DNA of 64,000 nucleotides, from positions 17,668 through 81,667 of the forward strand of contig JAGLRN010000025.1 in assembly GCA_023136265.1 (NCBI GenBank), written 5' to 3'. This document shows, piece by piece, positions 51,249 to 57,558 of this stretch. Position 1 is the stretch's first letter. Every line of letters begins with the position of its first letter. The translations under genes and the position numbers were made by a program. The DNA is from Thermoplasmata archaeon. Its GTDB lineage: Archaea > Thermoplasmatota > Thermoplasmata > RBG-16-68-12 > JAGMCJ01. The notes under the pieces are model-generated. The model ran no database searches, was not told the DNA's origin, and was given only the letters and a program-made list of their open reading frames with translations.

Positions 51249-51668
51249 CTACTCCCCGACCATCTGGACGATAAGCTTCCGGCTTCTCCGCTTGTTGTCG
51301 AGCTCCACGAATACGATCTGCTGCCACGTCCCCAGAAGCAGGTTCCCATCCACGAAGGGCACTGTCAGGCTCGGCTTCAAGAACGCAGCCCGAACGTGGC
51401 TGTGTCCGTTGCCATCATGCCACATCTGCTCGTGTCCGTATTCCATGTTCTTCGGGAAGAGCCTCTCCAAAGCATCGGGGATATCCCTCAGAAGGCCTGG
51501 CTCATACTCGATCGTCGTGACCGTGCTTGTGGAACTCCTCGTGAAGATGCAGGCTATCCCGCTGTTCATCCCACAATCGGAAACGACCCGTCTGACATCC
51601 TCCGTCACGTCGATAATGTCAACCTCACCCTGGGTACTGAGCTCAACTGAACCAGTGACTACTGTCAA
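51249..51668 (-). CDS. YjbQ/UPF0047 family protein
   Basis: GIACIFTRSSTSTVTTIEYEPGLLRDIPDALERLFP...WHDGNGHSHVRAAFLKPSLTVPFVDGNLLLGTWQQIVFVELDNKRRSRKLIVQ. Confidence 0.92.
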   Translation of the reverse strand: MTVVTGSVELSTQGEVDIIDVTEDVRRVVSDCGMNSGIACIFTRSSTSTVTTIEYEPGLLRDIPDALERLFPKNMEYGHEQMWHDGNGHSHVRAAFLKPSLTVPFVDGNLLLGTWQQIVFVELDNKRRSRKLIVQMVGE

Positions 51669-51716: not shown

Positions 51717-52520
51717 CTAGTCGGTGTCGAAGGCTCTGAACTCTTCCGGATACGACTGGATTTCTCCCTGGGCCTCGAGTGGAGGGAGAGGGGAGAGCCT
51801 GCTCTCCCCCGATTCCTGAACGTCAACCGCCACCTGTATGCTCCTTGCCATCACCACGACCTCGTCTTCGAGCACTGTCAGGAAGGTCCTCGATATCCTC
51901 TCCACAACGCACTCTATCAAGCCGGCGATCACACCGTTCAGAACGGAGAAGGCCCCGGTCAGCGGTACGTCCGTTCCGAACTTGAGAAGTGAGTCGTTCT
52001 CCAGCACGATCGTGGAGTCCGAAGCGGTGCGTAGCTCCCGCAACCCCTTCTCAGCTGTGGTGTCTCGGCCCTCCACGGAGAAAGGCATCACGGGGATTGA
52101 GATGACGACAGCGCCGGAATCGCGGATGATTCCGGAGACTTCGGGAGCGCAGCCAGTTCCTATGCCTCCGCCCAACCCGACAATGAGGAATGCAATGTCA
52201 GCCCTGATCGCAGAAGAGATGCTGTCCCTAGCGGCACGAGCAAGGTCCCTTCCCACATCGGGAACGCCCTTTGCACCTCTGGAATGCTCCGGACCCTTCC
52301 CTAAGCGGATCTTGATGTCGGAGACGACGCTACTGAGACTCTCCTCGTCGGAGTTGATGGCGACTGTCTCATATCTTAGCCCGGACCGTTCCCGAACCTG
52401 ACCGGCGATGTTGCATCCCGCACCGCCGCACCCAACGATGACGATTCGGGGCTCTGGCAGATCTTTCGATAGTATTCCCATGACGTGGTTCACGATTTCC
52501 TGTTCTGTTACTGCGCTCAT
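51717..52520 (-). CDS. Truncated FtsZ/tubulin-superfamily protein (GTPase domain only)
   Basis: MSAVTEQE...IVIVGCGGAGCNIAGQV, VAINSDEESL, GLGGGIGTGCAPEVSGII, ISIPVMPFSVEG, ENDSLL; ends at ~268 aa without recognisable NxDxxD T7 loop or C-terminal domain. Confidence 0.88.
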   Translation of the reverse strand: MSAVTEQEIVNHVMGILSKDLPEPRIVIVGCGGAGCNIAGQVRERSGLRYETVAINSDEESLSSVVSDIKIRLGKGPEHSRGAKGVPDVGRDLARAARDSISSAIRADIAFLIVGLGGGIGTGCAPEVSGIIRDSGAVVISIPVMPFSVEGRDTTAEKGLRELRTASDSTIVLENDSLLKFGTDVPLTGAFSVLNGVIAGLIECVVERISRTFLTVLEDEVVVMARSIQVAVDVQESGESRLSPLPPLEAQGEIQSYPEEFRAFDTD

Positions 52521-52672
52521 CGGTTGCCTCCAAAGGTGTTTGCACGGAAATCTGTGTCCCGAAGGTTTGCATCCCATCCCTTCAGTGAGCAGTGCTTCAC
52601 GGCCCTCGCCGTTCCCATCTTTCTGGCTAGCGTTTGAGTCGCACAGACTTCCGCGCCTTGCACGTCCTTTGT

Positions 52673-53056
52673 CTATCGTTCGAGAAGCTCTCTTTTGTCG
52701 CCGAAATCAACCGAGACCTCCGTCCCAGAGGCTATTCCCATTGTCCTCTTGTGTTCGTCGAGCCTTTTCACGTTCTCTGGGGAGAGGAATTCCTCGATGC
52801 ATTTGAGAACCACATATTCCCGAGAGAGGAAATAGCCGTCCCTGATCAAAGCATCGATGAACCCGAGGTACTTCGCTGGTATTTTCACCGATATCTCTTC
52901 CTGGGTCTTCTCCGTGCTGTCAATGAAGGCCTCTACAGCCACCCTCAGGAACTGGGACCGATTCGAGAATTCCTTGCTCTTCAGCAGGAAAGAATCCATC
53001 CTTTCCAGGTTGTCTTTCTCCAGTCTGAGGGTCACGCGTTCGTTGATTTCCTTCAT
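52673..53056 (-). CDS. Ribbon-helix-helix regulator with two RHH-like segments
   Basis: MKEINERVTLRLEKDNLERMDSFLLKSKEFSNRSQFLRVAVEAFID + EEISVKIPAKYLGFIDALIRDGYFLSREYVVLKCIEEFL. Confidence 0.8.
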   Translation of the reverse strand: MKEINERVTLRLEKDNLERMDSFLLKSKEFSNRSQFLRVAVEAFIDSTEKTQEEISVKIPAKYLGFIDALIRDGYFLSREYVVLKCIEEFLSPENVKRLDEHKRTMGIASGTEVSVDFGDKRELLER

Positions 53057-53231
53057 TGAGCCACCGCCTGCCCTCGAGGAGGTATGACTTGGGTCATACA
53101 AATCGAGAACATAAGGACGTGTTGCAGACGGTATCTGCAGGACGGTATTTAATAATATCGTGATGTGTCTTATCCCGTAGGACAAGGCGAAAGCCTTTTT
53201 TCCGCCCTGGGATTAGTGGGTGAGAACCGAC

Positions 53232-56108: not shown

Positions 56109-56143
56109 GGATAATATAGTGAGTGCGCTCTCAGTCACCAGAT

Positions 56144-56217
56144 GGGCCTGTAGCTTAGCTAGGTTGAGCGATCGGCTCTTAACCGATAGGTCAAGGGTTC
56201 GAATCCCTTCAGGCCCG
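56144..56217 (+). tRNA. tRNA-Lys(CUU)
   Basis: GGGCCTG TA GCTTAGCTAGGTTGAGC G ATCGG CTCTTAA CCGAT AGGTC AAGGG TTCGAAT CCCTT CAGGCCC G; complete cloverleaf, anticodon CTT. Confidence 0.95.
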
Positions 56218-56223
56218 TACTAA

Positions 56224-57558
56224 TTGCGGTACGAAACCATTATATTGGGGTTAACTGATAGTCTCATCGTGACGAAGCGGAAGGGAAGAGGAACTGCTTA
56301 CAAGTCGCTACTCGAAGACAAAGAGGTCAAGCGCTGGTATGACAACGTGGCAAGAGGTTCCATCGTGACTGCTGATGTCTATTTGCGTCGATTGGGCAAC
56401 TTCTGCAGAGGCCACGAGCTCACGCCAAGAAAGTTCGCTGCAAAATCGAAGAAGGAACTCTACAAGGTTCTTTTGGACTACGTGACCGAGTTGGAGGACA
56501 AGGAACTGACAGGTTCATACATAACGTCGATACTGAAGGCACTCAGATCCTGGCTTGGCCACAACGACAAGGTCATACAGAAGAAGATCAAGGTCAGAGA
56601 CTCTGGGATTCATCCTACATTGAAGGACGAGAGAGTGCCAACTCCTCAGGAACTCAAAGGGATCTTTCTTTCTGGAGACAAGAAGACCAGGGTCATGTGT
56701 GCTCTGGTGGCACATTCAGGATTGAGGATACAGACACTGGGCAGCTACACAGGAGACGATGGACTTGTCGTTGGTGATCTTCCTGAGATGAAGGTAAAGG
56801 GCGATTCGATTGCTTTCGAAAAGACACCGACCATAGTCGTGGTCAGGCATGAACTGAGCAAGGCTGGACAGAGGTACTTCTCATTCCTGTCCGAAGAGGG
56901 TTGCGAATATCTGAAGGATTACCTTGAGGAGAGACTCCGCAATGGAGAGAAGATGAAGATGGATTCTCCCATTCTCACGCCAAAAACTGCCAGGAAGCCT
57001 TTCATATCAACGACCAAAGTCTCACACGCGATTAGGGGAGCCATAAGGAAATCTGGCTTTCAATGGCGGCCCTACGTTCTCCGATCCTATTTCGACACAC
57101 AGCTCATGCTTGCAGAATCGAAGGGGTGTGTCCTCCGTGATTACAGAACTTTTTGGATGGGGCATGTGGGAGACATTGAGCATAGGTACACCACTAACAA
57201 GGCCAAACTGCCTGCTCAGGTCGTTGAGGATATGAGGGAAGCCTACAGTAGGAGCCAGGAATTCCTGCAGACAAAGGTCCCCGAACTTCCCAAAGAGGAA
57301 GAGCTGAAGCGAATATTCCGCACAGAGCTGTTGCGCATGTCCGGGTTCACTGAGGAGGAGATAGAGAAGGACTCGCTCTGCAACATCTCAGATGAGGAAC
57401 TGAGAGACATCATCAGGAACCGTCTGGTCGGGGCCAATCCAAACAACAATCATCAGAAGGTCGTGGGCGTAGATCAAGTCGAAAAATATGTTGCCGAAGG
57501 ATGGGAGTTCGTGACAGCCCTTCCGGACAACAGAATCATCCTCCGATATCCCTCTTGA
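56224..57558 (+). CDS. Tyrosine recombinase/integrase of a tRNA-Lys-associated integrative element
   Basis: R-box HSGLRIQTLG, YVLRSYFDTQLM, FWMGHVGDIEHRYTTNK; begins 7 nt after tRNA-Lys. TTG 56224 or downstream GTG start. Confidence 0.85.
   Translation: MRYETIILGLTDSLIVTKRKGRGTAYKSLLEDKEVKRWYDNVARGSIVTADVYLRRLGNFCRGHELTPRKFAAKSKKELYKVLLDYVTELEDKELTGSYITSILKALRSWLGHNDKVIQKKIKVRDSGIHPTLKDERVPTPQELKGIFLSGDKKTRVMCALVAHSGLRIQTLGSYTGDDGLVVGDLPEMKVKGDSIAFEKTPTIVVVRHELSKAGQRYFSFLSEEGCEYLKDYLEERLRNGEKMKMDSPILTPKTARKPFISTTKVSHAIRGAIRKSGFQWRPYVLRSYFDTQLMLAESKGCVLRDYRTFWMGHVGDIEHRYTTNKAKLPAQVVEDMREAYSRSQEFLQTKVPELPKEEELKRIFRTELLRMSGFTEEEIEKDSLCNISDEELRDIIRNRLVGANPNNNHQKVVGVDQVEKYVAEGWEFVTALPDNRIILRYPS

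Follow-up and report, generated by a model that had tools for sequence, protein, structure and literature searches.

Within the 64,000 nt of Thermoplasmata DNA analysed here (the window), the minus strand encodes a half-length FtsZ paralog of 267 amino acids (half-FtsZ; 51717..52520), called through PF00091, TIGR00065, alignment, AlphaFold and orthologs. The open reading frame runs from an ATG at 52520 to 51717, with a Shine-Dalgarno-like GGAGG (52527..52531, minus strand) 6 nt 5′ of the ATG. An in-frame upstream ATG at 52577, giving a protein that begins MGCKP, was rejected as the true start because the resulting extension lacks conservation across families, and what they do share there is DNA or RNA sequence and not protein. 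On the same strand, 152 nt upstream, lies a gene for an RHH protein (52673..53185, minus strand; profile matches to RHH_1 and RHH_8, with weak CdrS similarity), and the two genes probably form one transcript. The intergenic leader between them contains a 15-mer, AAGGGATGGGATGCA (52568..52582, minus strand), which is the perfect reverse complement of the loop of a hairpin sRNA encoded elsewhere in the genome and the predicted target site of that sRNA. This site is enclosed by a leader helix found by helix scan, P1, with its 5′ strand GCGCGGAAGTCTGTG at 52642..52656 and its 3′ strand CACAGATTTCCGTGC at 52542..52556 (both minus strand). An intact YjbQ gene (51249-51668) begins about 50 nt 3′ of the half-FtsZ stop. 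Elsewhere in the window, at 56143-57558, an integrase-like gene (weak PF00589) comes immediately after a tRNA-Lys(CTT), a pair that suggests an integrated element.

The half-length FtsZ protein

FtsZ is thought to need both of its domains for polymerisation and GTP hydrolysis. In a domain search, half-FtsZ matched PF00091 over residues 25-181 (1.9e-27), while PF12327 (FtsZ_C) was absent; TIGR00065 covered residues 23-211 only, at 153 bits against an equivalog cut-off of 295. The sequence-only reading had proposed that motifs T1 to T6 are kept and that the T7 loop and the entire C-terminal domain are missing, and all three points were borne out. Aligned to the canonical FtsZs of the same genome, the protein has T1 as GCGGAGCN, T2 as NSD, a T3-like GAKG, T4 as GLGGGIGTG, T5 as PFSVEGR and T6 as LENDSL. 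At T7, the canonical 'KPGLVNLDFNDIRTIM' aligns with 'RTFLTVLE-DEVVVMA', so that the NxDxxD position after H7 reads TVLE-DE and the loop is lost. The AlphaFold model (45 aligned sequences, mean pLDDT 78) has the FtsZ N-terminal fold and, where canonical H7 meets T7, a single 50-residue helix followed by a disordered tail. The layout is thus a GTPase domain at residues ~23-185, H7 with its extension at 187-236 and the tail at 238-267. Foldseek of this model returned FtsZ structures, the best being M. jannaschii 1w5a (TM 0.65, ~200 columns); M. jannaschii FtsZ also provides the nearest solved structures, with an alignment that stops at about residue 217. The tail had been described as short and acidic; it is short, but only mildly acidic. 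A tail motif (e.g. PVAFDDNGFIGLR) is conserved at the half-FtsZ end in the sister families f4, f5 and f2 (families of the class are numbered f1 onwards) and is weak in the genus of the window, and the tail in f8 resembles HADLDPMFSGFGPSMFG.

These features place half-FtsZ beside several known proteins without making it one of them. Canonical archaeal FtsZ1 and FtsZ2 (M. jannaschii, PDB 1w5a) share its GTPase fold and T1-T6; unlike them, half-FtsZ has no T7 NxDxxD and no FtsZ_C, its H7 is prolonged into the 50-residue helix, and it falls in a separate clade. The chloroplast protein ARC3, which regulates FtsZ assembly, likewise has an FtsZ-like GTPase domain without a full FtsZ C-terminal domain; ARC3 is a plant protein with a middle region and MORN repeats, and differs from half-FtsZ in these extra regions and in origin. 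The FtsZ-like Tubulin_2 (PF13809) proteins are members of the tubulin superfamily that also lack FtsZ_C and carry large extensions (Makarova and Koonin; PMC9871819). The half-FtsZ domain is PF00091 instead: the domain search of the window protein gave no PF13809 match, and Tubulin_2 matched family members weakly (15 of 45). In a literature search of open-licence full texts, no paper on the half-FtsZ family or its sRNA was found.

The genome is a 120-contig assembly, and a truncated pseudogene, or a frameshift or assembly error that hides a C-terminal domain, had to be considered. The same stop-ended gene occurs in five assemblies of the genus (this one and four others) at 90-93% identity. Its dN/dS within the genus is 0.09-0.20 over the whole gene, and half-FtsZ is thus under purifying selection. 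Together with the intact neighbour 50 nt downstream and the presence of the gene in at least 20 families, the orthologs and the dN/dS refute such an artefact, to which we attach next to no probability.

Half-FtsZ and other FtsZ genes across the Thermoplasmata

Relatives of half-FtsZ were sought class-wide with a family profile, in genomes that are mostly metagenome-assembled. Frames of ~240-320 aa without FtsZ_C were found in f1-f6, f8, f11, f13, f17, f20, f23, f24, f25, f29, f30 and f32, and further half-FtsZs, in f14, f21 and f33, were reached through the operon and the sRNA site; the clade spans 20 or more families of the class. PF00091 matches all 45 aligned members (up to 7.7e-44), none of which is listed with FtsZ_C, and the aligned members keep the nucleotide-contact motifs and have lost T7 along with FtsZ_C. 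A tree of 43 GTPase domains, an analysis that had been proposed from the sequence, puts all 28 half-FtsZs on the same side of a branch with support of 91/79 that recurs in 90% of bootstrap trees, so that a single origin fits. Half-FtsZ is a dedicated, class-wide gene family. Conservation of the nucleotide face has exceptions: the f14 proteins have a degraded T4 (GGVFGSRVAP or GGTFGSRVAP), the f21 protein has no T1 and the f4 proteins have lost T3, and a GTP-timed mechanism therefore cannot hold for all half-FtsZs.

Two observations on gene context and domain fusion were made along the way. An ATP-NAD-kinase-like gene lies 3′ of the half-FtsZ gene in f24, f8 and f33 (L073:6902-8002; L166, L282, L336), its identity in the latter two families coming from reading the translation only. 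In a Methanophagales MAG (JAUWNY010000047.1), a 465-aa protein (L081:3363-4757) joins a PF00091 domain (1e-42) to a SIR2-like PF13289 domain (2.5e-14); it has no FtsZ_C, branches beside the half-FtsZ clade and is possibly a defence or NAD-cleaving protein with the FtsZ domain as sensor.

A search of the window's genome for full-length FtsZ, also proposed from the sequence, found four canonical FtsZs, a tandem pair on contig C33 and single genes on C28 and C30. The genome also encodes a divergent two-domain FtsZ-like protein (L006:1270-2184, on C110) without T7 and with an altered T4, GGYTGTW, and SepF lies on the same contig. Several canonical FtsZs accompany half-FtsZ in most genomes. The family f11, probably Methanomethylophilaceae (gut methanogens), differs in this respect. 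By HMM detection in high-completeness genomes, PF12327 went undetected in 42 of 43 sampled f11 genomes, the lone match being weak (5e-4, in G146). Class-wide, 53 genomes have no PF12327 match, 42 from f11 and 11 from f22, a split obtained for unlisted rows by arithmetic. Half-FtsZ is still encoded in nearly all closely examined f11 genomes (with a weak PF00091 match, 6.6e-15, in G053); several of these also hold a degenerate two-domain FtsZ relative without T7 (L286-L291), and SepF gives a weak match or none in many of them. As a separate observation, the f22 genomes G059, G068 and G128 (99% completeness) gave no match to PF00091, FtsZ_C or SepF; these archaea therefore probably divide without FtsZ.

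The leader and a predicted hairpin RNA

An RHH gene occupies the same position relative to half-FtsZ in f1, f2, f5, f8, f14, f17, f20, f21 and f33, as judged by reading translations in f8, f14, f17, f21 and f33; RHH profile matches upstream in f24 and f30 are very weak. This order recalls the cdrS-ftsZ2 operon of haloarchaea, in which an RHH gene lies directly 5′ of an FtsZ-family gene (PMC7439475, PMC8406309), and the window shows the same arrangement, with both genes on one strand. The window operon differs in that its FtsZ is half-length, its leader is structured and carries a predicted sRNA target, and its RHH protein scores far under the CdrS cut-off (28.5 bits against 100 for NF058555).

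Helix P1 was assessed by an ungapped helix scan with shuffles. Its position is fixed within the order while its sequence differs by family (f2-f6), for example GCCAGAAAGTTTGG/CCGAACTTTCTGGC in f2 and GAGCCAGGCGGTCCGC/GCGGGCCGCCTGGCTC in f5. Shuffles seldom equal the leader helix for many, though not all, sequences, and for some GC-rich leaders this per-sequence test has little power. MAFFT alignment of the leaders followed by folding gave no consensus structure, and a search of 4227 Rfam models gave no riboswitch or known RNA match in the half-ftsZ leader.

The 15-mer within the leader recurs across the 21 relatives compared, all of which have one or two exact copies per genome (three in one), and a reversed-pattern control had no match in any of the 21. 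One copy lies in the half-ftsZ leader, with one or two changes in f2 and f3. The second, on the opposite strand, forms the apical loop of a hairpin RNA gene, which in the window's own genome is GGGGAGUUUUGGGCUAGUUCGUUAGAG[UGCAUCCCAUCCCUU]CUGACAAGGCUGGCCCUCCCUUUUCUAUUUUUU (loop in brackets; G000:C74:25630-25705, minus strand). Upstream of this gene is a BRE/TATA-like archaeal element, and its 3′ flank is T-rich in many genomes; we infer that it may be an independent transcription unit. A covariance model predicted the sRNA in 161 of 300 class genomes and 59 of 91 genera, and its loci match none of the 4227 Rfam models (E up to 1). Across 56 sequences, both-side changes occur in 12 of 21 stem pairs and make up 53 cells where shuffled controls give 15 (0/500), a count from an alignment fitted to the model's structure, which favours structure somewhat; all slid versions of the stem score far lower. 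At loop columns 29-43, 55-56 of the 56 sequences agree, and co-change between loop and target therefore cannot be seen. The f8 genomes also contain a second, shorter hairpin with nearly the same loop (L243, G091:C1:1681235-1681296).

The window leader and its own sRNA loop are exactly complementary over 16 nt (the 15-mer and the preceding G), with a predicted duplex energy of -32.9 kcal/mol. Exact leader-sRNA complementarity is longest, at 22 nt, in G019 and G013; most examined leaders of f1-f6, f13, f20, f24, f25, f29, f30, f32 and f11 have 11 nt or more, although several f11 leaders have 9-12 nt only. Outside f8 the site mostly precedes the start by ~50-200 nt. For families with no site near the half-ftsZ start, a broader scan located one within the operon, 370 nt 5′ of that start in f17 and directly 5′ of the RHH start codon in f8. 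In f14, f21 and f33, scanning for the site exposed RHH/half-FtsZ pairs that the protein profile had missed; that the site predicts the gene in these families is the strongest argument for a link between sRNA and operon. The link is less certain in f7, f9, f12, f16 and f18, which also have the sRNA, and in f16 and f23 (G046, G069) the best sRNA site follows another RHH gene. A comparison of self and cross duplex energies did not discriminate and is confounded by GC content. Other sRNA targets at up to two mismatches within the order are scattered, with no consistent gene. Near-copies of the site with two mismatches occur in two genomes of the same genus (G000:C92, L295; G004:C65, L302), about 80 nt 5′ of a related gene that encodes a helix-turn-helix-like sequence.

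Possible roles of half-FtsZ and its RNA

In an FtsZ filament, each subunit sets its nucleotide face against the T7/C-terminal face of its neighbour, whose T7 completes the GTPase site. Half-FtsZ was suggested at the outset to be a nucleotide-binding FtsZ-like regulator or capping subunit. Its anatomy, with the nucleotide face whole and T7 and the C-terminal domain gone, and the canonical FtsZs of its own genome agree with that suggestion; the action itself, like the GTP binding and the partner, is inferred from sequence. In the mechanism we propose, half-FtsZ would bind GTP and dock, through its nucleotide face, onto the T7/C-terminal face of a full-length FtsZ. Lacking a T7 and a C-terminal domain itself, it could not receive a further subunit by the canonical route. 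It would thus join one filament end and halt growth, acting as an end cap or low-valency regulatory subunit. The bound GTP would be hydrolysed solely by the partner's T7, with release to follow, so that binding would be self-limiting. The amount of such a protein would need control, which the operon order, after the RHH gene, and the structured leader could supply: the leader would present an exact antisense target, and the loop of the trans-encoded hairpin RNA would pair with it near the translation start. Repression of translation is the more likely effect of the sRNA on half-FtsZ, because the f8 site directly precedes the RHH start codon; outside f8, leader remodelling is equally possible. 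We give about even chances to this reading as a whole, in which a GTP-binding FtsZ paralog that does not polymerise by itself tunes FtsZ filaments and is dosed post-transcriptionally by a trans-acting sRNA.

Several observations sit poorly with a filament cap. No canonical FtsZ partner is detectable in f11, nucleotide motifs are degraded in f14 and f21, and T3 is lost in f4. There is a smaller yet real chance that half-FtsZ is a separate switch, with GTP or nucleotide-free, that resembles ParA or MinD, dimerises or binds another partner through its long H7 helix and tail, and merely inherited the FtsZ fold. The single 50-residue helix and the tail motif conserved in several families would suit such a switch, as would the retention of half-FtsZ in f11 where canonical FtsZ goes undetected, and the upkeep of the operon in f14 and f21 despite degraded GTP motifs fits a switch better than capping. 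Most members, however, keep the nucleotide motifs, and half-FtsZ sits beside several canonical FtsZs in most genomes. The RNA half of the proposal has a different competitor, in which the 15-mer acts at the DNA level as an operator, perhaps one bound by the RHH protein encoded next to it, and the sRNA locus is just a second regulated site. RHH proteins bind DNA, the RHH gene adjoins, and the Haloferax RHH regulator CdrS recognises a defined motif in DNA, for instance upstream of ftsZ1 (PMC8406309). We regard an operator as improbable, given that the site falls within a structured leader, 3′ of the RHH gene, that the other copy coincides exactly with the loop of a hairpin element that has a putative promoter of its own and a covarying stem, and that the two copies are complementary as RNAs.

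The filament-tuning reading, with its sRNA, would have bacterial parallels. Trans-acting sRNAs of bacteria expose an invariant loop complementary to an mRNA leader and have their own promoter, as predicted here; unlike them, the candidate is archaeal and class-wide, has one principal conserved target operon and matches no Rfam family. The paired sRNA would provide a concrete archaeal case for post-transcriptional control of a division gene, and the predicted pairing of 16-22 nt is testable by two mutations. Selection of half-FtsZ across a whole archaeal class makes a separate role of the nucleotide half of FtsZ testable in its turn, and its persistence without a recognisable canonical FtsZ raises the question of how those archaea divide. 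A bolder proposal, which we offer tentatively and think unlikely in its full form, is that f11 lost canonical two-domain FtsZ, leaving half-FtsZ, with at most a degenerate two-domain relative, as the remnant of the FtsZ division machine, and that one ancient trans-acting sRNA doses half-FtsZ across the class. If true, cell division in these archaea would be subject to a conserved RNA switch.
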